Under the pieces are notes generated by a model. That model was not told the origin of the DNA, made no database searches, and worked only from the letters and a program-made list of their open reading frames with translations. From Verrucomicrobiota bacterium (GTDB taxonomy: Bacteria; Verrucomicrobiota; Kiritimatiellia; UBA8416; JABMPJ01), in NCBI GenBank assembly GCA_018648805.1, contig JABGQM010000004.1:124001-188000 (forward strand): a stretch of DNA of 64,000 nt, read 5' to 3'. Within the stretch, counting starts at the first letter, position 1; each line of letters begins with the position of its first letter. The translations under genes and the position numbers were made by a program. Positions 17,662-29,736 of the stretch are shown piece after piece.

Positions 17662-18891
17662 TCAACTCGAAGCCGCGTAGGCCTGCACCGCACTGTCATC
17701 CAGCACGAAATCGGGTGAACTGGTCTCGGTCTTGAATACGGGCACCTCGAAACGGCTCTGATAGTCGATCCCCGGTACGCGCGCCTTCACCTCGAGCCGC
17801 CAGACGATCGTGCTGTCCGAGTTCGAATCATCTGTCGCGCGCGCCTCGTACGGGAGGGCAAAGAGCACCGGGATGGCCGACTGGGTATGGTCATCCGGCA
17901 GCACCTCACGCGACATGACCCGCTCATCCTCATGCAGAATGCGCTCTGACGTGGAACGGTTTTTGCCTGAACCGGTTGTAACACGGTTCACACAGGTCAG
18001 GCGCAGACGGAACCCGTCTTCGGGTGCGATATGCACCGGGGTCTGGATCACCCCGGCCAGCTTGCCGCCCAGCACGCCGGGCACCTCGGCCATGCGAAAG
18101 ATCGACTCACCGAATTTACGCCAACGCAGCACATTGCGGATCACCCAGATGAGCAGGCCGATCCCGACGGCGGGGAAAAGCAACCCCACCAGCGCGGCGC
18201 GATTGCCCTTCTTCAGTTCGGCCGGCACGACAAACCAGAGCGGGGAGGAGACCAGATTCCAGAAGAGACAGAAACCCATCGAGAAGACCATCATCATCCG
18301 GTTCGAGGAGCGGATCTCTCCCGCGGCCCACGCCGCTTTCCAGAGCCAGGGCGCCTCGGGGTTGGCGTGCTTAAGCTTGCTGTCCTTGCGGCTCCGCTTG
18401 GCGGCGATTGCGCCACCGGCCATCAACCCGAAACCTACCCCACCGAAGATCAAGCCGAACAGCAGTTCGAAGCAGATCATCTCAACCCGCAGCGACGTGT
18501 AGAGTACAGACGTAGTGGGTTCTTCGGGATTGACGTGACAGGCAAACGGCTCCTTGCGCTTGCGGTAGCCGTCGAGTTCGCGATGCGTGCGCTGATGGAA
18601 CGACCCGATATTGTCACTGCCACCGTGCAGAGAGATACGGTCGCCGGTATAGCGTCGTCCCTCGTAGGTATACTCGTAGCGCGCCACGGCCTTGTAGGTG
18701 GTCGAGTCATCGCCGCGGTGCGACTCCAGCTCCGCGTGCACGATCATGGCCGGCACTTCGTCCCAGCCGCGCATCTGCCGCGAGGTGGTGAACTGCTTCA
18801 CCACCAGCCCACTCATGAATACGCCCACCCCCGCGAACGGCAGGGAGAACAAAATCAGGAACCACTTCCCTTTAGCGCTGTTTTTCTTCAT
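17662..18891 (-). CDS. DUF3592 membrane protein
   Basis: The 409-aa protein starts with a transmembrane segment (FLILFSLPFAGVGVFMSGLVV). It is followed by the DUF3592 beta-domain: a WDEVPAMIVHAELES opening, AVARYEYTYEGRRYTGDRIS, and HVNPEEPTTSVLYTS. Then come a second hydrophobic pair (LLFGLIFGGVGFGLMAGGAI), another pair around WFVVPAELKKGNRAAL, and a C-terminal beta-rich domain with MSREVLPDDHTQSAIPVLFA. DUF3592 proteins are membrane proteins of unknown role. It is the last gene of a same-strand series with the VIT-vWA protein 20 bases upstream, which suggests membership of the same operon. Confidence 0.75.
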   Translation of the reverse strand: MKKNSAKGKWFLILFSLPFAGVGVFMSGLVVKQFTTSRQMRGWDEVPAMIVHAELESHRGDDSTTYKAVARYEYTYEGRRYTGDRISLHGGSDNIGSFHQRTHRELDGYRKRKEPFACHVNPEEPTTSVLYTSLRVEMICFELLFGLIFGGVGFGLMAGGAIAAKRSRKDSKLKHANPEAPWLWKAAWAAGEIRSSNRMMMVFSMGFCLFWNLVSSPLWFVVPAELKKGNRAALVGLLFPAVGIGLLIWVIRNVLRWRKFGESIFRMAEVPGVLGGKLAGVIQTPVHIAPEDGFRLRLTCVNRVTTGSGKNRSTSERILHEDERVMSREVLPDDHTQSAIPVLFALPYEARATDDSNSDSTIVWRLEVKARVPGIDYQSRFEVPVFKTETSSPDFVLDDSAVQAYAASS

Positions 18892-18911
18892 GCCTCCAGA
18901 GTGTAGAAACT

Positions 18912-21197
18912 CTAGGGCGCCACCTCAATCAGGATCGCCTTCCCATCCAGGACCACAATGACCCGCTCGCCCAGCGCGAGGCAGGGCTTGAGCTCGGGGT
19001 GATCGTCCAGCAACTTGAAGTAATCGTCGGAGGCAAAGACAATGCGACGCGTCTTCATATCCTTCTTGTAGACGCTGTCAACCCACTGTCCCTCGATGCG
19101 GTAGAAGACCCGCTTGCCGACGTAGCGCACGGCGGTCTGTCGCTCATTGGTCACCGTGTCGCGCTTGTAGCGCTCAATCGCACGGCTCAGGTCGATCGCC
19201 TCGGCACCACTATCGGCCCTGAAGTAGGACTTCACCTTGCCAGTGCTACCGCCAACGACGCGCTGTCTGCGTTTGGTTGCTGGCGCCGCGGCCGACATGG
19301 CATCGGCAGCACTCTCGCTAAACATGGGAACCGGGGACAAGGCAGGAGGGGTACGCGCGCCCGCCTTGCCTGCGGAACGCTCTGGGGCCGCAAACATCTT
19401 CACGGCACGATTCTCCTCGCGCTCCTTCATCACGGCCGGGGCCTGGTCGCGGTCGATACCGTGGGTGGTGTAGGCCTGGTCGTCCTCGAGAACGAGGTAG
19501 GAGGTGTAGGGGGTCATGATCCCGTATTCCTTGCTGAGCCGCATAACCTCGTCCTTCAACTCATCCTCTTCGCCCTGCAGACGGATCGCATCGAGCAGGT
19601 AGCCGACGCGACGGGTGGCCCACAGGCGGGGAATGAAAGCGTTGTCGCTGTTGCTGGCCTGGAAGTCGCCCTCGTAGACGAACTCACGCTGCTTACCCTC
19701 AACATCGCCGAGTAGCCGGATGGCCACATGCCCACTGCCATCGTAGCGCCCCAGCACGACAAGCTGGTCGCCGCAGAAAATATCGGCGAGCTCGCGCGGA
19801 TGCACCTGGGAGGTCTTCAGCTTGTCCACCTCCACCTTAACATTGGCCAGGACGGGATGGCTGAGCTTATCGACCAGACTCGACACCTTGGTCTCAATAT
19901 CCTCATCGGGCAACACGTACTGCGACAGGCCGCCATTCTTGCCGGACAGCTTGTCGAGCAGGTGCGTATTGACCTTCTCGCCCACACCGAACACAAACAT
20001 CCGCACCCCGGCTTGGTTGGCCTTGGCCACGTTGCCGACGATGATCGCGGGGTCCGACTCGCCGATGGTCGGCTTGCCGTCGGTCAGAAAGAGGACGATG
20101 CGCGGGCGCTTGGGATCAAAATCCATCGCCAATGCCGCGGCCAACGCCCCGTCGATCGCCGTGCCGCCACGCGCCACCAACTTCTTGGCAAAGGTATCCG
20201 CCTTGGCCCGATTGGCCTTGTCGACCGAGAGCAGCTTGTCGGCCAGCGGCTCGACATCCGTGCTGAAGCGGATGATGTTGAAGCGGTCGCCTTCATTGAG
20301 CCGACCGACGCACTGCAGCAGCGCCTCGCGGGCCTGCTCCATCTTACGGCCGGCCATGCTGCCGGAGGTATCGAAGACGAAGATCACATCCTTGGCCACG
20401 ACCTGCCCATCAGGCGGCAACACACTCGGCGCCAGCATCAGCATGTAGAAGCCATCCTCGCCCTTGACGGCATGCGTCAACAGGTTCAACCCAAAAGCCT
20501 TCTTCGAAACGCTGTAGTACAGCACGAAGTCGCGATCGAGCAGGGCATGCTCCTGCTCAAATCCCACCACGGCCTCGTGTTCACCCTTACGCGTGATCCC
20601 CACCTCGTGTGAAGGCGAGTAGACCGTCTTGATCGGCGTGGCAGAATGGAGACGCAGCGAGGTCGTGAAATCCTCGAGGGTGCGTGAGGCACGCTCGCCG
20701 GTCTTGAGCGGATAGACAAACTTGTAGAGCCCGCCGTCGAAAGACAGCGTCTGCGAATACTCAAGCTCAATGCGTTGCTCGCCGTTCTTGGGCACCGGGT
20801 AGACGCTGATGCGAAACAGATCACCGCCCATGTATTCGAGCAACCCCGGATCCTTCATGCGCCGTACGATGTCCTGGTAGATCTTGCGGGCCTTGCCCTT
20901 CTCAACCAGCTCGCCGCTCATGCGCTTGCCGTTGATGTACATGGCAAAATCCGAGATGGCCGCATTCGCCGGAAGCGGGAAGACGAAGACGGCTTCGAGA
21001 TCGCGGTTGACGCTGTTCTTGAAGACCTGTTCGACCTTCGTCGTGGCGACCCCATCCTTGATCTGAATGTCGACCCGCTGGTGCTTGATGGCCAACGGCG
21101 CCAGCGAGCTATCCTTCGGAATCAACATCCCGGATCCAAAGGCCGATGCGGCCGTGAACAGGGCAATCGTCAATGCAGTGGTCAGGTATCGTTTCAT
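18912..21197 (-). CDS. VIT and von Willebrand factor type A domain exported protein
   Basis: The 761-aa protein has a Sec signal (MKRYLTTALTIALFTAASAF). A VIT domain covers about 30-160 (VDIQIKDGVATTKVEQVFKN, EAVFVFPLPANAAISDFAMY, LVEKGKARKIYQDIVRR). A vWA domain covers about 268-440, with the MIDAS motif DTSGSM at 276-281 and the downstream FLTDGKP block. VIT plus vWA is the architecture of vertebrate inter-alpha-trypsin inhibitor heavy chains. In bacteria such proteins are exported and bind Mg2+ and partner proteins through the MIDAS. A linker rich in Ala/Pro/Ser follows at about 610-670, and the C-terminus is a small domain with RYVGKRVFYRIEGQWVDSVY. The gene is 17 bases from the ARPP-1-like gene, as part of the sigma/anti-sigma series. 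Confidence 0.9.
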   Translation of the reverse strand: MKRYLTTALTIALFTAASAFGSGMLIPKDSSLAPLAIKHQRVDIQIKDGVATTKVEQVFKNSVNRDLEAVFVFPLPANAAISDFAMYINGKRMSGELVEKGKARKIYQDIVRRMKDPGLLEYMGGDLFRISVYPVPKNGEQRIELEYSQTLSFDGGLYKFVYPLKTGERASRTLEDFTTSLRLHSATPIKTVYSPSHEVGITRKGEHEAVVGFEQEHALLDRDFVLYYSVSKKAFGLNLLTHAVKGEDGFYMLMLAPSVLPPDGQVVAKDVIFVFDTSGSMAGRKMEQAREALLQCVGRLNEGDRFNIIRFSTDVEPLADKLLSVDKANRAKADTFAKKLVARGGTAIDGALAAALAMDFDPKRPRIVLFLTDGKPTIGESDPAIIVGNVAKANQAGVRMFVFGVGEKVNTHLLDKLSGKNGGLSQYVLPDEDIETKVSSLVDKLSHPVLANVKVEVDKLKTSQVHPRELADIFCGDQLVVLGRYDGSGHVAIRLLGDVEGKQREFVYEGDFQASNSDNAFIPRLWATRRVGYLLDAIRLQGEEDELKDEVMRLSKEYGIMTPYTSYLVLEDDQAYTTHGIDRDQAPAVMKEREENRAVKMFAAPERSAGKAGARTPPALSPVPMFSESAADAMSAAAPATKRRQRVVGGSTGKVKSYFRADSGAEAIDLSRAIERYKRDTVTNERQTAVRYVGKRVFYRIEGQWVDSVYKKDMKTRRIVFASDDYFKLLDDHPELKPCLALGERVIVVLDGKAILIEVAP

Positions 21198-21213
21198 AAC
21201 AGCTTCCTTCTCC

Positions 21214-22290
21214 TTAGCGCTCTCTACGTGGTTGTGGCCGCGGCTGTATCGTCATCCGCGCGGGAAACAGTCCCGCATGCACCACACCGCCAAAATGTTC
21301 CAGTGATGTCCCATCCGCTTCAGCGTGCACACCCCACAGCTTGCCGAGGCCCGGTGTGGAGCGCCGACTGAAACGGGCGCGCGCAATCCCATCCAGGAAG
21401 CGCCGTACCTGCGCTTCGCGCACGGGCGCCACACGCTGCTTGCTGTAGAGATCAATCGGCGGACGCGACGCCATCACCTCAGCCCCGTACGAGCGACACA
21501 GCTTGGGCCACAGGGCTGCAAACAGCTCCGGATCACCAAAGAGATCACACCCCACGATGCGGTGCCCCCGAACCACCACGCAGCCGACCGTGCGCGGACA
21601 CGGCAGCGGACGCAGTCGCTCAACACAGCTCGCCAACCGACGACGACGTTCAGGCGATTCAAAGAACTGCTGGTAGTTGGCCGTTTCCGACTCTACCTCG
21701 GCGGCCTTAAGCTGCGACCCGATCTCGCCCCAGATACGGTCCTGCCCCACCCCACTGGAAGCCATCTTGCGCAGGGCCGGCGCCGAGAGGGTCCCACCGC
21801 TCTTGAACAGGCCGCTCTCGCGCCAGCGATGCTGCTCACCGCAATAGACCGCGATCTCGCGCCAGCCGGAGCGACGCGACAACAGGACGTCATCGCGCAC
21901 CATACGGTTCTGTTTGCCGCCAAGGATCAGCTCGCCCGCCATCAGAAAGACTGGCCGGGTGGCATCGTTGCGGACCTCCAGGCGTGATACGCGGCCCTCA
22001 CCCATCTCCCGAATCGCCAGCTCACCGCGATGAAGGGCCTGGTCGAGGGTCAGGATGCGCGTCATGCTGTGGCGCGCGCGAAGTTCAAGCGGATAGAAGG
22101 TCAGGCCCGACCAGCGGTGCACCCCGCCAATCGTGACGCGCTGTGCCAGGGCCGGCAGATGGACGCCCGTTTCAGGGCGTACGGGGGGGATGGGACGCAC
22201 CGGTTTGCTCAGCGGGCGATCCCCCTCCGATTCCAGGTAGGCCCCCGAGGCAACGGCAGCCGTCATAACAATTGTGAGAAGTAGCTTCAT
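21214..22290 (-). CDS. ARPP-1/DUF6569-like exported protein
   Basis: The 358-aa protein has a short Sec signal (MKLLLTIVMTAAVASGAYLE). The mature part contains GLTFYPLELRAR, LTLDQALHRGELAIREMGEG, NDATRPVFLMAGELILGGKQ followed by NRMVRDDVLL. It also has CVVVRGHRIVGCDLFGDPEL. The GEL-x-GGKQNR block and the WSGLTFYPL opening resemble the ARPP-1 (DUF6569) domain, a beta-rich domain of unknown biochemistry often found as a standalone secreted protein. The assignment is from memory of the motif. It sits between the anti-sigma gene and the VIT-vWA gene on the same strand with spacings of 61 and 16 bases, so it is likely co-transcribed. Confidence 0.7.
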   Translation of the reverse strand: MKLLLTIVMTAAVASGAYLESEGDRPLSKPVRPIPPVRPETGVHLPALAQRVTIGGVHRWSGLTFYPLELRARHSMTRILTLDQALHRGELAIREMGEGRVSRLEVRNDATRPVFLMAGELILGGKQNRMVRDDVLLSRRSGWREIAVYCGEQHRWRESGLFKSGGTLSAPALRKMASSGVGQDRIWGEIGSQLKAAEVESETANYQQFFESPERRRRLASCVERLRPLPCPRTVGCVVVRGHRIVGCDLFGDPELFAALWPKLCRSYGAEVMASRPPIDLYSKQRVAPVREAQVRRFLDGIARARFSRRSTPGLGKLWGVHAEADGTSLEHFGGVVHAGLFPARMTIQPRPQPRRER

Positions 22291-22351
22291 GGTCCCGCCC
22301 TCGCTTTCAAGAGTTTAGACGCATGCCACCCCCTGTTTGTTCCAAAGAACT

Positions 22352-23749
22352 TCAGGGCACGATCTCAACCTGGATTTCGATGAGGTCCCCCTCCCCACCG
22401 CTCGTGGGCAGAGCGGAGACCGTTAAACGCCCTTCCAGCGCGTTCAGGCGCTTGAGAAAAGCCTGCAGGCGGGCGGGCGAGAGATGCAACACAATGAACT
22501 CCGACCGCTCAACATCCTTGGCTTCGGCCTCCTCGCGCCTGTCGGCAGGCTTGGCGGCAGGCTTGGCGGCAGGCTTGGCGGCAAGCTTGTCGGCCCTATG
22601 CTCCACCTCATCCGCAACCAGCTCCGACACTGCATCCAGCTCTACCGCCGGGGCGCTGCTAGTCATCACACCGTCAGCGAGGAGCTGCCGCGACGCCTTT
22701 TTCTTCACAGCATCCTTGTCGTCAACGGGTTCCTCCACCGCCTGCAGCACCGCGTCGCGCGAGAGGCCCTTAACGCTGATCTGCACCACGCGCACCGCGG
22801 CCCCTGATTTGGACCGTCGTGTCGCCACCGCGGATTCAGCCACCACATGGCCTGTCATCATGGGGGCCTTGCGTGCACGCGCCAGCTGTCGACCCCCGGC
22901 CCCGCGATTCGCCTGCATCTCGTTCCCCACGCGCAGACCGCCCTTCAAACCAGCCGGGGCCGCGTCCGCCCAGACCGCCTCATCGCGAGCCACACGCGCC
23001 GGAGCCACTGCGGGTGCCGGGACACGCTTCGGAGGTGCGGCGATAGAGCTGCGCAAGAATTCAGCACGCTTGCCGCCCATCGCCTGGGCCACCACCGCTT
23101 CCGCGTCTTCCATTGCGTCTTCCTTCTGCATGCGGTCGTCCTCACCGAGCGCCGCCTCCTCAAGCATCACAACCGCTTCCGCAGGGCTGTCAACCGGAAG
23201 CGCGGCAGCGAGAGCGGGAGAAGCGGGAACAGGGCCCGGGGCCGGGGCGGACATCGACGGCGCAACGGAACGGGCCATAGATAAAGCAGCAGGGGCCGTC
23301 GCGGGGGTCTCATCAGGGACCACGATCCGTTCCGCCGCAGGAGCCACGACGGGGACACCCGACAGTGCATCCGTGGGGGCATCCGGCGGGAGAGCCTTGA
23401 TCGCCGTATCACGTGGGGACGGATCGAGATACTGGATGCCGAGCAGCCCCACCACCAACACCACGGAGGCGGCCAGGGCCACACGCATGGGCGGTGTATT
23501 GAACAGGTTCCAGTTCAGGTGTAGACCGTGCGGCCGGTCGATCGCAGCGTTGATGCCCACGATCAGATCGGCCGGCGGGGTAACGGCGGGAAGCTCATGC
23601 AGCTGCGCCACGGTCTCACGCAGCGCGTCAAATCCCTCGCGACAGCCTGGGCACGCATCCAGGTGGGCATCGAATGCCGCCTGCTGCTTGGCGTCCAACA
23701 TCCCGTCGAGGGCCTCAGACATCTGTTCCGTTATGACATCACATTTCAT
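22352..23749 (-). CDS. Anti-sigma factor with zinc finger and long periplasmic region
   Basis: The 465-aa product starts with a cytoplasmic anti-sigma zinc-finger domain (zf-HC2). It contains EALDGMLDAKQQAAFDAHLD and the HxxxCxxC ligand set H29, C33, C36. One transmembrane segment follows (about 87-108, PPMRVALAASVVLVVGLLGI). The rest is a long periplasmic region. It is Ala/Pro-rich, contains several Met/Glu-rich stretches, a four-unit Ala-Lys-Pro repeat near 385-405, and ends in a small folded domain (FIVLHLSPARLQAFLKRLNA, then GDLIEIQVEIVP). Its first codons overlap the sigma gene by 11 bases. It presumably holds that sigma factor inactive until a periplasmic signal releases it. Confidence 0.88.
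   Translation of the reverse strand: MKCDVITEQMSEALDGMLDAKQQAAFDAHLDACPGCREGFDALRETVAQLHELPAVTPPADLIVGINAAIDRPHGLHLNWNLFNTPPMRVALAASVVLVVGLLGIQYLDPSPRDTAIKALPPDAPTDALSGVPVVAPAAERIVVPDETPATAPAALSMARSVAPSMSAPAPGPVPASPALAAALPVDSPAEAVVMLEEAALGEDDRMQKEDAMEDAEAVVAQAMGGKRAEFLRSSIAAPPKRVPAPAVAPARVARDEAVWADAAPAGLKGGLRVGNEMQANRGAGGRQLARARKAPMMTGHVVAESAVATRRSKSGAAVRVVQISVKGLSRDAVLQAVEEPVDDKDAVKKKASRQLLADGVMTSSAPAVELDAVSELVADEVEHRADKLAAKPAAKPAAKPADRREEAEAKDVERSEFIVLHLSPARLQAFLKRLNALEGRLTVSALPTSGGEGDLIEIQVEIVP
22544..22591. repeat. 12-bp tandem repeat inside the anti-sigma gene
   Basis: Three exact copies of GGCAGGCTTGGC are followed by one imperfect copy. On the coding strand they encode an Ala-Lys-Pro-Ala repeat in the periplasmic linker. 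Such in-frame tandem units can change in copy number by slippage without breaking the gene. Confidence 0.85.
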
Positions 23750-24377
23750 TGCGTTTCACCATCAAGTCATCACGCACCCGCATGCGTGCCCGTGCCAGGC
23801 GGGACTTCACCGTCCCGATCGAGCAGGCCAGCGCCTCGGCAATCTCGTCGTAGGTCATCCCCTGCAAATCGCGCAGGATGATCACGCTGCGAAAGGCTTC
23901 GGGCAGTCTCCCGATCGCCCGCTCAATCGTCGCCTGCGTCTCGCGCCGTTCAATCACACGGTCGGGCCGATCGCCCGGATCCACCGGTTCGTACACCGCC
24001 CCTTCGTCCGGTCCATCATCCAGACAGAGCCGCTCACGATCACGTCGCCGTCCCAGCTTGCGCATTCCGCTGCGGCACGTATTGGCCGCCAATGAGCAGA
24101 GCCAGGTCGAAAACTTCGAGCGGTAGCGAAACTGCCCGATTGCGCGATACAATTTGACAAAGATCTCCTGCGTCAGGTCGGCCGCATCATCCGCGTTACC
24201 CGCCATGCGATAGGCCAGGTTATACATCGGCCCCGAGAAGACGTGCACCAGCTTCGTAAACGCTGCCCGGTCACCCGCCTGCGCCGCGCGAACGAGTCCG
24301 TCCACGTCCACGCCCTCGGTCGCCGCCGCCATAGCCGAAACCGGCCGATCTGCGCTCTCTGTAAGATTAGACGCCAT
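23739..24377 (-). CDS. ECF-type RNA polymerase sigma factor (RpoE-like)
   Basis: The 212-aa protein has sigma region 2 (YNLAYRMAGNADDAADLTQE, then IFVKLYRAIGQF with the WLCSLAANTCRSGMRK helix) and region 4 (LPEAFRSVIILRDLQGMTYD, then EIAEALACSIGTVKSRLARA). Regions 1.1 and 3 are absent, as in ECF sigma factors. The start at 24377 is preferred, though an ATG at 24428 is also open. The stop overlaps the anti-sigma start by 11 bases. Expected role: directing transcription of an envelope-related regulon, probably including the A2M-like gene that ends 83 bases upstream and its own operon; this is an inference. Confidence 0.92.
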   Translation of the reverse strand: MASNLTESADRPVSAMAAATEGVDVDGLVRAAQAGDRAAFTKLVHVFSGPMYNLAYRMAGNADDAADLTQEIFVKLYRAIGQFRYRSKFSTWLCSLAANTCRSGMRKLGRRRDRERLCLDDGPDEGAVYEPVDPGDRPDRVIERRETQATIERAIGRLPEAFRSVIILRDLQGMTYDEIAEALACSIGTVKSRLARARMRVRDDLMVKRNEM

Positions 24378-24459
24378 GGCCCCCCATAATGTTCCCTGCT
24401 GATGGATCCTTTTGGAGGGACCATACACGGAGGAACGGTGGGGTGCAACATGAGAGGCC

Positions 24460-27400
24460 TCACTGCCCGGCTCCCACCACTGCCGCGACCGGGGCGGCCC
24501 AGCTCTTGTGCTCGTCGGTGTAGTAGAGGTAGGCCCGCGAGGCGGGGGCGGTGTAGCTGCCGGGGATGGCGGCTACGAGACTGAGCGGGAGCTCGACCTT
24601 CTGTTCGGCTTTCAGCTCACGCCAGTAAAGCACGACCTCGCGGCCACGCACTTCATAGGCCGCAATCCGACCGGCCTTGACCAACTCCTTGAGTTGATCG
24701 TGGCGCACTTCGAGTCCACCCGGAATCCCGACAATCGCGATCGGCGTGGGGATGATCTCATCCTCAGCGCGGTTGGTGACCGTGACCGTAGCCTCGGTCA
24801 CGCCGCCTTCTTCTACCGTTCCCGATACCAGGGCCACAGCAATACCGACCTTGCAGGCGTCGCTGGAGTCGGGCTTCTCATTCGCGTAGTCGACCGTCAC
24901 TGAGCAGGGCATGGCCGACCCGCCAACCATGCGAATCTCGATCACATGCTTGCCGGGCTCAAGCAGCTCGGCTATATCGGTCAGCTCAATCGCGCCCTGT
25001 GTATCCTTGTTAAACGCAACAGCGCTACCGGCCTGCCGCCCGTCCACCATCAGCTCCACGGAACCGGGGGCCTTGGGTGTCGAGCGGGCGGCGTCGTAGG
25101 CGAGGATGGCACGCAGGGCCAGAACCGTCGACTGCGTGCTGCCGTAGCGCCCGCCCTTGCAGATCTCGGCCAGCCACTGGATCCCCTTCTCGACCGCTCC
25201 GGCCTGATCGGGATCTTGGAGCCACGCCAACACGGCCAGCGCGGTGGTCTCAACCTGCAGCGAGGTGCCGCCGCTGCCGACGATCGTGGTGATGCCACCC
25301 TCGACGCCACCATCCTTGACCTGGTGGGTCGCCAACGTGCGACAGAGCGTCTTGGCAGTCGAGGCATCGCCCGCCAGCCAGGCGACGTTGGCGCCCAGCG
25401 CGATCACATAGCTGTTCTTGCTCTTGAGGGCCGCCTGCTTGACGGTCTCGATCTCGTCGGCCAGTGCAGAGGCCGGCTCGCCGGCGGTCAGCAAGGCCCA
25501 CACGATGTAGGCGTTGGAGCAGTCGGGATCAGCAATCCACGTGTGCAGGGCGCGCCGCTCGCGCTTGAATCCGCCCTTACCATCCTTGGCCTTCATCAGC
25601 CAGGCGCGGGTCCGTTTGAGCATGCCGGCATCCACGTTGTGTACCTCGGCCATGTCGGTGAACTCAAGCAGACCATAGGCCGTGAGGGCCTCGTGTCCGG
25701 GATCGCCGCCGAACCACTCGTAGCCGCGCTTCTTGCACTCGTATCCGATCAGCCGCTTGTAGCCCTTCTCCAGCAGGGCGCGACTGCGCTCGACGAGCTT
25801 GGGATCGACGCCCTGGTGCGACAGGAAGTACTGCTGCGCCATGACGAGCGGGTAGGTCGTGGATGAGGTCTGCTCGAAACAGCCGTTGGGTTCGCGCATC
25901 AGGCGTTGCAGCGCCTCGGTCAGGTTAGCCAGTGGTGTGGGACAGATCGCCAGCGCGCTCTTCACACTACCGGGGACACGCGTCTTGGGAATGTCGATCG
26001 TGAAGCTGAGCGTGGAATCGGGCTCCAGCATACCGCCCTCACCGATCTCTACTGGGAATCCACGCGGCACCACGCGCAGCGTGCGTGTCACCGTGTCGCT
26101 ATAGGGACCCGCCGTGGCTGCAATCACCACCTCGCCCTCGCCGGTCAGCTCTCCGACCGTCAGGCGCACCACCTGCCGCACGCGGCTGTCAGCGGCCAGG
26201 CTGAACGGTGCGACCGCACCAATGGCAATGCCCTTGGCCGCCGTCAGCGTAAAGGTCACGTCGTTGAGCGTCTCCGCCGTGCCATTGACGAAGGCAATCG
26301 GGAGCTCGATCACATCACCCATCGTCACCTCGAGTGGAAGCTTGGGCTCGAGATAGAAAGGCTGTACCGAATCCACGAGCGTCGAACCGCTACCCAGCGC
26401 GCCTTTGCGGGTGAACGCATCCGCCGAGATGCGGAAACTGGTGACCGCATCGCTCAGCGCGAAAGCCAGCGTGGCCTTGCCATCCTTGCCGGTCTTGATT
26501 CCGGCATGCCAGAAGAGGGTTTCGGCAAAGTCAACGCGGTCGTTCGGCTGCCGGTTGGGTCGCACCGTGTGGGCGTATTCGCGCACCGAGATATAAACAG
26601 TGGCACGCAGCTCTGACATCATTTCCATCTCGGCGTCATCGGCAAACAGACGCCGCTTGCGACGGACCTGCTCTTCCTTCTCAACCACCTTGGCCAGATC
26701 CTGGCGCAACTCGTCACGCTTGCCGCCTACCTCACGTTCACCCAGCTTCTCGTCGCGATCCTTGTCCTCTTCGTTACCCACAATCACGGGTTTCTCAGCG
26801 GGCGGGGCTACGGCGGGCGGCATCGCGCCCATGGGCCGGGGAACGGCCGCAGCCTGCACGTCCATGCCATCCGCAACCATCCCGAACCACCTGCCGCCAC
26901 GGCGGGCACCGCTCTTGACCGCCATGTGGCGGGTCACAATGCGTAGTGCCAGGGCGCGGCGGGCGGCATCTCCATGCTGGGCAATGAAGTCGGTTGTGCG
27001 CATGAAGGCGAAGCGGCGCCAGCCCTGTGTGCCAAGCAGGAGGTCGAGGGCGAGTGGGGCCTCGGGATTGTCGCGATCAAGATAGACCTGCGCATCGGCC
27101 AGCTCACGCACCTCGGGCTCAAGCAGAACCATGACCGGCAGGCGCGGGGCCTGCTCGCGTGTCTCGATCATCTCGAGCACGCTGTCGTCTGTCACCGTGA
27201 CGCCCACAACCGCTTCAACCGGTTGGCCGTTCTCATCCGTGGCGGTCAGGGTCAGATTGACCTTCCCGGCCGGGGTATAGCGATCGTGATCAGGCTCAAT
27301 TTTGACGGTTACATGGTGGGTCGGCTGACGATAGACCAGCCGTTCGGCCAACGGGACACCGTCACCGTTCCAGACCGTGGCCACCAGCACGCCGTCGGCC

Positions 27401-28629
27401 GAGGCCGGGGCGGTGAGGGTGACATCGGCGGTGACGGGCTGCCCCTGCTGCCGGGAACCGCGAACCGTCAGCGAGGCCAGCTCCACCTCACGCTTGCGCA
27501 GCGTCACGGTCAGCGGACCGGCGTCGGTGCTCAGCACGCGCAAGGTCACCGCTTCACGGGCGGCGTAGACATCTGTGGTCGACTGGATCAGCGTACCGCT
27601 CTCACGCACGGCGGGCAGATCGAAGGTGGTCGTGATGCCGGCCGGTTCGGTGATGGCAAGGTGATAGCGCTCACCCTTACGCGGGGTAAAGACAAAGCGG
27701 CCGCGTCCCTCGTGCTCAGTGCGGAAGGTACCGACCTGACGCTTGTCGGCGGTCAGCACCACGCCCGCGACATCGGCCGGCTTCTGGGAGGGGGTACGCG
27801 TTTCCACGTAGACGCGACAAGGCAGCTCCGCCACCAGATCACCACCCTCAGGGAACGCAGCCAGGTCGACGGTCTGCAGTAGAATCGGGATCGTCTTGGT
27901 GGCCGTCTCGGTGACGCCACCATCCGCGATCGCGAAGACGAGCGTTCCGTCGCCGCGGGTGATCTTTTGGGGCAGAGCGAAGCGGGCCGTGGCATTGCCG
28001 TCGCGATCCAGCGTGGCGCTGGCGCGGTGGATTTCCTTGCCGTCCACGCGGGCCGTCACCGTTACGCTCGCCCCAGCAGGCGCACCGCCCTCAGCGCGGG
28101 TGGCTTCGAGCGTGGCGCCGACCTGGTCGCCGGGCCCATAGCCGTCACGAAAGAAGGTGATCTGGGTCTTGATACGCGGAGCACGGTAGGCACGCACGTC
28201 GAAGTTCCGTTCCGCCGGGGGCAGGCCGAGGGCCGGATACGTCACCCGTGCAGTATACTCACCGCCCGCCTGACCCTCTGGCACCTCCCACGCAAAGCCG
28301 GTAACGCTCTCCTCGGTTGTGGCATGCCCCGAGCTGACCGTGTTGCCCTTGGGACCTTTGATTTCCACGAAGCCGGCGATGCTATCCTTGAGGGGCGTGC
28401 GATCGGCGGCATGCAGCACCACGCTGCGGACGTAGACCTTCTCGCCGGCCCGATAGATCGGTTTATCCGTACTGACATGCGCCAGATAGCGGTCTTTGCC
28501 GCCCAGCGTGGCGCTATCGACCACCTCGGCCGGTTGCGGTTTCGTGGCCAGGGCCACACTCCATGCCAGAAGCGATCCCAAAGCCAGCAGGATCGATGAA
28601 CACCGTGTAATGCGCGAAAAAGCCGTCAT
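24460..28629 (-). CDS. Alpha-2-macroglobulin-like exported protein with thioester motif
   Basis: This 1389-aa protein starts after AAGGAGA (28629) with a Sec signal (LLALGSLLAWSVALAT) and no lipobox. An MG2-like domain opens with HVSTDKPIYRAGEKVYVRSV (about 55-75). A second macroglobulin-type strand set includes EPDHDRYTPAGKVNLTLTAT. A charged low-complexity stretch (about 600-670, with RRKRR at 656-660) precedes the A2M signature FAETLFWHAGIKTGKDGKAT. The internal thioester motif is GCFEQ with Cys917, followed by the helical thioester-binding domain and a C-terminal receptor-like domain. In known A2Ms a protease cuts a bait region, then the thioester links covalently to the attacker. The gene reads in the same direction as the sigma operon just downstream. 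Bait identity is inferred. Confidence 0.92.
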   Translation of the reverse strand: MTAFSRITRCSSILLALGSLLAWSVALATKPQPAEVVDSATLGGKDRYLAHVSTDKPIYRAGEKVYVRSVVLHAADRTPLKDSIAGFVEIKGPKGNTVSSGHATTEESVTGFAWEVPEGQAGGEYTARVTYPALGLPPAERNFDVRAYRAPRIKTQITFFRDGYGPGDQVGATLEATRAEGGAPAGASVTVTARVDGKEIHRASATLDRDGNATARFALPQKITRGDGTLVFAIADGGVTETATKTIPILLQTVDLAAFPEGGDLVAELPCRVYVETRTPSQKPADVAGVVLTADKRQVGTFRTEHEGRGRFVFTPRKGERYHLAITEPAGITTTFDLPAVRESGTLIQSTTDVYAAREAVTLRVLSTDAGPLTVTLRKREVELASLTVRGSRQQGQPVTADVTLTAPASADGVLVATVWNGDGVPLAERLVYRQPTHHVTVKIEPDHDRYTPAGKVNLTLTATDENGQPVEAVVGVTVTDDSVLEMIETREQAPRLPVMVLLEPEVRELADAQVYLDRDNPEAPLALDLLLGTQGWRRFAFMRTTDFIAQHGDAARRALALRIVTRHMAVKSGARRGGRWFGMVADGMDVQAAAVPRPMGAMPPAVAPPAEKPVIVGNEEDKDRDEKLGEREVGGKRDELRQDLAKVVEKEEQVRRKRRLFADDAEMEMMSELRATVYISVREYAHTVRPNRQPNDRVDFAETLFWHAGIKTGKDGKATLAFALSDAVTSFRISADAFTRKGALGSGSTLVDSVQPFYLEPKLPLEVTMGDVIELPIAFVNGTAETLNDVTFTLTAAKGIAIGAVAPFSLAADSRVRQVVRLTVGELTGEGEVVIAATAGPYSDTVTRTLRVVPRGFPVEIGEGGMLEPDSTLSFTIDIPKTRVPGSVKSALAICPTPLANLTEALQRLMREPNGCFEQTSSTTYPLVMAQQYFLSHQGVDPKLVERSRALLEKGYKRLIGYECKKRGYEWFGGDPGHEALTAYGLLEFTDMAEVHNVDAGMLKRTRAWLMKAKDGKGGFKRERRALHTWIADPDCSNAYIVWALLTAGEPASALADEIETVKQAALKSKNSYVIALGANVAWLAGDASTAKTLCRTLATHQVKDGGVEGGITTIVGSGGTSLQVETTALAVLAWLQDPDQAGAVEKGIQWLAEICKGGRYGSTQSTVLALRAILAYDAARSTPKAPGSVELMVDGRQAGSAVAFNKDTQGAIELTDIAELLEPGKHVIEIRMVGGSAMPCSVTVDYANEKPDSSDACKVGIAVALVSGTVEEGGVTEATVTVTNRAEDEIIPTPIAIVGIPGGLEVRHDQLKELVKAGRIAAYEVRGREVVLYWRELKAEQKVELPLSLVAAIPGSYTAPASRAYLYYTDEHKSWAAPVAAVVGAGQ

Positions 28630-28739
28630 AGTGAATCTCCTTTTGCTAACTAAGACGCATCTCACCCCCAGTTTGTTCCGGATATTGCGACTCAAACACC
28701 ATTCTCTTGCCCCAACCCCGCTTGCCATGATGGATGCCT

Positions 28740-28868
28740 GCGTGACGTACAGAGCTACGATCGTAGCCCTGTACGTCACGCACTATAGACTGTTTTGACT
28801 GGAAACATTGAGTCTTGCCATCTAGTGCGTGTCATCACAGCTCACGATCGTAGCTTTATATGACACGC
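28740..28868. repeat. Pair of large palindromes upstream of the A2M-like gene
   Basis: The first palindrome (28740-28781) is 42 bp long with only one mismatched pair, centred on CGATCG. The second (28827-28868) has perfect 9-bp outer arms (GCGTGTCAT / ATGACACGC) and shares the central ACGATCGT. The 45-bp gap between them is itself arranged symmetrically: ACTA and AGACT on the left, AGTCT and TAGT on the right. The spacer 28630-28941 holds no gene. No T-tract follows on either strand, so these are not ordinary terminators. Confidence 0.85.
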
Positions 28869-28941
28869 TACCCGGGTATGGGGGTACTGGGTGAGAGAGA
28901 GATTCGGGTATGATATGGGCCCGATTACTTGAGAGTGGTGA

Positions 28942-29736
28942 TCAGTTGATGATGGAGGTGATCGGGCCGCCGAGGCGTTTGCCCTTTCGGCTGCTTCCGC
29001 CACCGGAGGAGGCACCCCCCAGGGGCGTGATGGGGCCACCGAGTCGCTTGACGGATCCGTTGTCCCCGCCCGGCATGTTACCGCCACGGCGGACGAGCTC
29101 GAGCTGCGCTTCAAACATCTCCATGGCCTTGGCCTTGTCGGCCTCACGGTCGGCGGAGGAGGTGGAGCTGCTACGGGTGGGCTTCTTCAGGCGGGAGGGC
29201 ATGGAGGAGGACAAGCGCGAGCCGCCCTTGGGGGTCAACCGCTGCGCGGCGCGCGCTTCGAGCGTGCTGCTCTTAGATTCAGCGGCTTCCCGGCTGTCGC
29301 AGAACCCGAGACAGCGAAGTTTGGGTGACATGTTGAGCTTGAGCGATGGAAACGATTTGGGGCGCTTGCTCTTGTCATAGGTGATGGTCGTCTGGTTCTT
29401 CTTGTCCTTGTTGTTCTTGTTGTTCGCCTTCTGGTTGAGATGCTCCGCCATGGTCTTCTTCTTGATGCCGAGCCGTTTCTCCTCCGCGTCCTTCCATTCG
29501 CGCCGTGCGTTGGTCAACGCCTTGCGCATCAGGGCCCCCTCGCCGCGTACCCGCTTAGAGGCCTCGCGGTACTCATCCATGCTCATGACACTGTATATCT
29601 CTTCGTGGGCGTGGTTCTGCTCGCAGACCACGGCGTAGCGCTCGGCGGGTTCCGCCGCCCGCGCTGACGGCACGAGCACAGCACAGAGAGCCAACACGGC
29701 AACCGGACGCGCCAGACTGTTCATCTCAAATTTCAT
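28942..29736 (-). CDS. Secreted protein of unknown function with duplicated C-terminal motif
   Basis: I do not recognise this 264-aa protein. It has a Sec signal (LARPVAVLALCAVLVPSARA). The mature part is highly charged and low in hydrophobic residues. There is an early YAVVCEQNHAHEEIYSVMS and a Lys/Asn-rich stretch (NQKANNKNNKDKKNQTT). A Ser/Arg/Lys-rich middle and a Gly/Ser-rich tail follow. The octamer KRLGGPIT occurs twice in the last 45 residues (in VKRLGGPITPLGG and GKRLGGPITSIIN), the second copy at the very C-terminus. Such a repeat could be a binding or sorting motif. It lies upstream of the A2M-like gene on the same strand, separated by 312 bases with two palindromes. Confidence 0.65.
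   Translation of the reverse strand: MKFEMNSLARPVAVLALCAVLVPSARAAEPAERYAVVCEQNHAHEEIYSVMSMDEYREASKRVRGEGALMRKALTNARREWKDAEEKRLGIKKKTMAEHLNQKANNKNNKDKKNQTTITYDKSKRPKSFPSLKLNMSPKLRCLGFCDSREAAESKSSTLEARAAQRLTPKGGSRLSSSMPSRLKKPTRSSSTSSADREADKAKAMEMFEAQLELVRRGGNMPGGDNGSVKRLGGPITPLGGASSGGGSSRKGKRLGGPITSIIN

Follow-up and report, generated by a model that had tools for sequence, protein, structure and literature searches.

A predicted ECF sigma-factor regulon of alpha-2-macroglobulins, ARPP-1 and a VIT-vWA protein in a Verrucomicrobiota bacterium

Introduction

Do an alpha-2-macroglobulin (A2M), an ECF sigma factor with its anti-sigma factor, an exported ARPP-1 protein and a VIT-vWA protein, encoded in one series of genes in a Verrucomicrobiota bacterium, belong to a single regulated envelope system, and which of the genes in this series are its constant members? 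Type I bacterial A2Ms, such as ECAM (YfhM) of Escherichia coli and Sa-A2M of Salmonella, occur with PBP1c, the gene of which is adjacent in a number of bacteria. To our knowledge, bacterial A2Ms are known mainly from this pair and from the mag operon, and little is known of their inducers. The name ARPP dates from a 2022 paper, in which the family was predicted to have a Cys-dependent activity directed at sugars, with Cys and Gln both conserved (PMC9503650). The contexts listed there are ARG, HIRAN, WYL and deacetylase, one of them being an exported pair with a deacetylase, and neither macroglobulins nor ECF or sigma factors are mentioned in the text (PMC9503650). Most queries in our literature search gave no description of the present gene combination. 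A first-pass annotation had read the seven genes as one envelope system, with the A2M and VIT-vWA proteins as a protease-trapping or stress shield under one sigma/anti-sigma pair.

Results

The analysed stretch of DNA (the window, 64 kb) belongs to contig C73 of a draft genome of 4.85 Mb, labelled G000. The bacterium is uncultured and of Kiritimatiellia type, and its close relatives are Kiritimatiellia MAGs. All seven minus-strand genes were confirmed as a collinear series at 29736-17662 (Table 1), with the overlaps and short gaps from the sigma factor onward that had been described for them (intergenic gaps of -11, 61, 16 and 20 nt, the first being the 11-nt overlap of the ECF and anti-sigma genes). 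No terminator-like sites were found between the genes, the minus-strand sites lying inside genes or 3' of the last gene, and no RNA families were found. The A2M gene probably starts at ATG 28629 and not at GTG 28779, because the GTG-start extension contains a predicted promoter; the ECF gene may start at 24377, with an MASN that relatives share, and not at GTG 24428. Between P0001 and the A2M gene, on the minus strand at 28739-28868, lie two imperfect palindromes with the common core GCTACGATCGT, of which there are only three copies genome-wide (these two and one at C1:182026). They could be the P0001 terminator or a binding site.

Table 1. Genes, predicted promoters and motifs of the series in the window.
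Feature	Position	Strand	Evidence
P0001, secreted protein, no assigned function (264 aa)	28942..29736	-	signal peptide by eye; no Pfam match
Predicted ECF promoter of A2M gene, GGAACAAACTGGGGGTGAGATGCGTC	28654..28679	-	same site in G002, G004 (A2M on another contig)
Short Type-I-like alpha-2-macroglobulin	24460..28629 (long ORF from GTG 28779)	-	Pfam MG2, A2M, TED; CFEQ thioester
Bait-like hypervariable segment of A2M	26605..26907	-	residues ~625-725 of GTG-start ORF
A2M thioester motif GCFEQ	25870..25884	-	invariant in 7/7 class orthologs spanning the site
ECF sigma factor	23739..24428	-	sigma region 2 and region 4 domains both present (Sigma70_r2, r4_2; PF04542, PF08281)
Predicted ECF promoter at ECF gene start	24370..24395	-	same geometry in G002, G008
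zf-HC2 anti-sigma factor	22352..23749	-	PF13490 E=7e-11; sequence; orthologs
Predicted ECF promoter of ARPP-1/VIT-vWA(/DUF3592)	22318..22343	-	pattern match; kept in relatives
Exported ARPP-1 (PF20208)	21214..22290	-	E=1e-56
Secreted VIT-vWA protein	18912..21197	-	VIT E=2e-32, VWA E=4e-20
DUF3592 membrane protein, last gene of series	17662..18891	-	PF12158

In a class sample of 193 genomes, ARPP-1 scored above the cut-off in 18, and in 13 of these a VIT domain was adjacent to it on the same strand. Of the remaining five, two have ARPP-1 near a contig end (G056, where VIT-vWA begins a contig, and G008, where it is located on another contig), and three belong to one genus with a different ARPP-1 subtype. 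The same adjacency appeared in many top-scoring loci of a contig scan, including Planctomycetota, and, for 18 loci, ARPP-1 distances correlated with VIT-vWA distances (r=0.69, permutation p=0.0002). Because the pair recurs in 13/18 ARPP-1 class genomes and in other phyla, the clustering is, by this comparison, above chance. ECF and anti-sigma genes lie 5' of ARPP-1 in G000, G002, G008, G009, G056 and G156 as well as on a Rokubacteria contig (L063), and G002 has the full gene set minus DUF3592. As judged from gene order, these neighbourhoods show a conserved core in which VIT-vWA comes after ARPP-1 and the ECF sigma factor and zf-HC2 anti-sigma factor often come before the two, with A2M as a frequent satellite.

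The proposal of one seven-gene system is therefore supported for this core and, as a satellite, for the A2M, but not for the two outer genes. DUF3592, present in 46/193 class genomes, is near the cluster only in the window genome and, divergently, in G015, and the sole ortholog of P0001 is in G002, where its position is the same. Both were rejected as core members, not being conserved with the cluster; on this distribution DUF3592 is accessory and P0001 is probably genus-limited. Outside the class, ARPP-1 of Omnitrophota-like and related loci is accompanied by a two-component system, a secreted vWA protein or both, and the Omnitrophota-like loci are without A2M. In MAGs of Omnitrophota, Spirochaetes and Aminicenantes (L066, L068, L056, L079, L102), ARPP-1 adjoins a secreted vWA protein, a histidine kinase with a response regulator, or both, which is a two-component version of the ARPP-1/vWA pairing. 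A plasmid search for ARPP-1 gave one distant match only.

The anti-sigma factor, encoded adjacent to the ECF gene, combines the zf-HC2 motif HxxxCxxC (HLDACPGC), one transmembrane segment placed by eye near residues 88-107, a long Ala/Pro-rich (periplasmic) part and a small conserved C-terminal domain. The first sign of a promoter motif for this sigma factor was GGAACAAAC...CGTCTTAGT upstream of the A2M gene in G000 and G002, and the motif was written as a looser pattern, GGAAC-N16/17-CGTC, and a strict one, GGAAC-N17-CGTC(T[AT]A). The 64-kb window has three copies only, all on the minus strand, upstream of A2M, ECF and ARPP-1, and G002 has the motif at the same trio. In the whole G000 genome the strict pattern has four copies, namely this trio and one 5' of a 2045-aa A2M on contig C62. 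Across 14 genomes, 13/14 strict matches lay upstream of regulon genes, those elsewhere including matches before the long A2M of G056 and, in G111, before the gene of a DUF4139-like secreted protein. The motif occurred in 19/64 upstream regions, compared with 0.32 in shuffles (maximum 3); its genome-wide raw count is not above that of a reversed-pattern control, the evidence being the positions of the matches.

These positions follow the genes when the cluster is broken up. The detached A2M of G004 (L119), on a contig without the ECF gene, and the detached VIT-vWA of G008 (L120), on another contig, both retain the motif, which also precedes ARPP-1 in G002, G004, G008, G009, G056, G111 and a Planctomycetota locus (L043). 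In G111, where a long gap separates the two genes, it is found before ARPP-1 and again before VIT-vWA. Thus A2M, ECF, ARPP-1 and VIT-vWA (the last by read-through or its own promoter) appear to share an ECF-type promoter also when apart, which is the strongest of the new evidence and supports one regulon, and the claim that the A2M gene and the sigma operon are co-regulated is borne out as far as sequence tells. The ECF-gene promoter is predicted to be an autoregulation site, weaker than the other two because its -10 overlaps the ATG of the conserved MASN start. The motif was not found 5' of cluster genes in eight relatives (G010, G015, G022, G043, G080, G129, G139 and G156), and control therefore differs or has drifted there.

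In a one-mismatch search, matches fell mostly inside genes, and only the DUF4139-like gene recurred (G000, G002). It encodes the first of tandem DUF4139-like secreted proteins (L163:6949-10216, L164:6830-10077). By these predicted promoters, the DUF4139-like secreted protein is a further regulon member in two families. Just 5' of the promoter-bearing long A2M of G056 lies the gene of a secreted protein that resembles vWA (L138:3054-4196; DTSGS by eye).

The window A2M belongs to a short class, defined as frames of about 1280-1530 aa (window copy about 1390 aa), with TED model scores far above those of long bacterial A2Ms (E=4e-24 for the window copy). Its closest solved structures are human A2M (E=2e-24) and CD109, with YfhM at E=2e-10. 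The thioester that had been ascribed to this protein is present, and GCFEQ is also found in L034, L051 and L053. Residues 625-725 reach only ~46% column identity in seven orthologs compared with ~80% elsewhere, and this hypervariable segment directly precedes the A2M domain at 754; its location and variability are as would be expected of a bait, making it a putative bait-like region. No PBP1c gene is next to the window A2M, the neighbours of which are P0001 and ECF, and no lipobox was seen in it. The second A2M of G000, the long one on C62 (L127:5388-11522; about 2045 aa), has bMG10 and a CSEQ thioester, and no other gene outside the cluster carries the strict promoter; the ORF after this A2M is glycosyltransferase-like by eye.

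A short A2M is present in seven class genomes, all of which also have ARPP-1 (Fisher p=2e-8); in G010 it lies at a contig break. It adjoins ARPP-1 or VIT-vWA in G156/L039, L034, L051 ("Hebobacteria") and L053 (Armatimonadota). At phylum scale, ARPP-1 accompanies it in 5/14 genomes (p=2e-4) and is absent from 9/14, so A2M is not obligatory.

ARPP-1 gave an AlphaFold2 model with pLDDT 90, for which no fold relative was matched in PDB or BFVD, and most copies in the clade start with an apparent signal peptide (by eye). In an alignment of 60 sequences, Q127, C150, R155, W156, Q183 and W187 are invariant, an invariance that is partly imposed because ARPP-1 motifs were themselves the criterion by which the scan picked its loci. 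Cys150 with Gln127 or Gln183 is perhaps a candidate pair. A CxEQ-like thioester (CGEQ in the window copy) was rejected, Gln153 being Q in only 35/60 sequences. The VIT-vWA protein has an intact MIDAS (DTSGS) and orthologs that are 58-85% identical, and its nearest solved structure is ITIH4 (E=3e-50, residues 41-575), in keeping with the inter-alpha-trypsin inhibitor heavy-chain (ITIH) architecture recognized at first sight. A DPHF(II) C-terminal coupling site is absent from its sequence.

Discussion

The genes described here seem to form an inducible envelope defence of a kind not described before. We consider it rather likely that these genes constitute an inducible regulon in which a sigma/anti-sigma switch would control A2Ms, the ARPP-1/VIT-vWA pair and a DUF4139-like protein. 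In this model, the zf-HC2 anti-sigma factor would hold the ECF sigma factor at the inner membrane until an external insult, most likely a protease or other envelope damage, frees it. The sigma factor would then transcribe its own operon and the GGAAC-N17-CGTC promoters of exported proteins, its predicted targets being the short thioester A2M, the second long A2M, the ARPP-1/VIT-vWA pair and the DUF4139-like secreted protein. From their anatomy, the A2Ms may trap proteases through bait cleavage and thioester coupling, and the VIT-vWA protein, which has the build of an inter-alpha-trypsin heavy chain, may bind partners through its MIDAS metal site. ARPP-1 would be its near-constant exported partner, with an activity that is probably Cys-dependent. 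We infer the signal, the trapping and the division of labour among the proteins, and a protease-trapping envelope defence is the natural reading that we infer from known A2M biology (PMC5764988). The first-pass annotation is therefore partly supported: it was right on the association and the likely control of these genes but missed ARPP-1/VIT-vWA as the constant core. Its ideas of co-regulation and of a protease trap are largely upheld, because the core is conserved, the promoter is shared and the A2M has the anatomy of a trap.

Each component has known counterparts, from which the present set differs. With Type I bacterial A2Ms the window A2M shares a CxEQ thioester, the MG2/A2M/TED domains, a bait-like segment and export; in contrast, it is nearer to human A2M than to YfhM, has neither a lipobox nor PBP1c, and is placed in a predicted ECF regulon with VIT-vWA and ARPP-1. 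The Type II A2M mag operon of Pseudomonas aeruginosa (MagA-F) is likewise a multi-gene periplasmic protection set that contains an A2M, but MagD is without a thioester and no ARPP-1, VIT-vWA or ECF pair is reported among the Mag partners (PMC5764988). As in RpoE/RseA-type regulons, an ECF sigma factor and a membrane anti-sigma factor are combined with a GGAAC-type -35 and exported targets; here, however, the targets are A2Ms, VIT-vWA and ARPP-1, and the anti-sigma factor, a zf-HC2 protein, has a long Ala/Pro-rich region in the periplasm. The bacterial VIT-vWA protein has VIT followed by vWA with MIDAS residues like ITIH heavy chains, but it is secreted, lacks the DPHF chondroitin-sulphate site, ends in another C-terminal domain and has ARPP-1 as a partner.

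A single switch over two A2Ms, an ITIH-like protein and an uncharacterized exported ARPP-1, with the sigma factor, anti-sigma factor, promoter and target list all obtained from sequence alone, makes an inducible protease-defence regulon in PVC bacteria directly testable. In addition, ARPP-1 gains a physiological context unlike that proposed so far.

The strongest alternative, which we nevertheless regard as unlikely, is that the core (ECF, anti-sigma, ARPP-1 and VIT-vWA) serves envelope assembly, adhesion or a matrix, and that the A2Ms do no more than protect the periplasm during remodelling. The ARPP-1/VIT-vWA pair is indeed far more constant than the A2M, the link of which to ARPP-1 is only partial at phylum scale, and the VIT-vWA protein resembles a marine sortase-target family, below the cut-off of that family. 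Moreover, a purely protease-centred reading is weakened because the Omnitrophota-like ARPP-1 loci have vWA and a two-component system (HK/RR) and no A2M. However, the promoter stands on two different A2Ms in one genome and on the long A2M in another family (G056), and the short A2M directly adjoins ARPP-1 in three further lineages, both of which speak against this alternative.

Considerably less probable is an exported form of the ARPP/ADP-ribose-sugar conflict theme, in which ARPP-1 would be the effector, its Cys reacting with sugars, and the other proteins accessory. The locus shares with the ARG/rhodanese-phosphatase systems a PF20208 protein with invariant Cys and Gln (Cys150 and Gln127 in the 60 sequences), as the proposed action on sugars would require, and an exported, deacetylase-paired context has been described (PMC9503650). 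These ARPP-1 copies differ in their signal peptides and in their neighbours, which are VIT-vWA, A2M, and ECF/anti-sigma or HK/RR, all of them contexts absent from the text of the ARPP paper (PMC9503650). No ADP-ribosylglycohydrolase or rhodanese-phosphatase was found in the cluster or among the scanned neighbour proteins, the examined ARPP-1 copies had no HIRAN or WYL gene next to them, and a defence-library search gave no match for the cluster, the neighbours of ARPP-1 being exported protease-trap and vWA proteins.

Bolder than the regulon model itself, and in our view highly improbable, would be a bacterial equivalent of the humoral pair that inter-alpha-inhibitor and A2M form in vertebrates, under one sigma switch, in which the A2M traps proteases, VIT-vWA is attached to a polysaccharide of the envelope, and ARPP-1 (Cys150, Gln127; perhaps a thioester or a Cys-sugar adduct) catalyses or accepts the coupling. 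That the genes are unrelated same-strand neighbours with chance promoter matches can be dismissed: raw motif counts are near chance expectation and DUF3592 and P0001 are indeed unlinked, but the positions of the matches, the promoters on detached members and the conservation across orders and phyla already refute it for the core set.

In another part of the phylum (G349, L172:5573-11345; G355, L174:6529-12304), a short-A2M relative lies directly 3' of a different ECF gene, which suggests that ECF control has been paired with A2M repeatedly.
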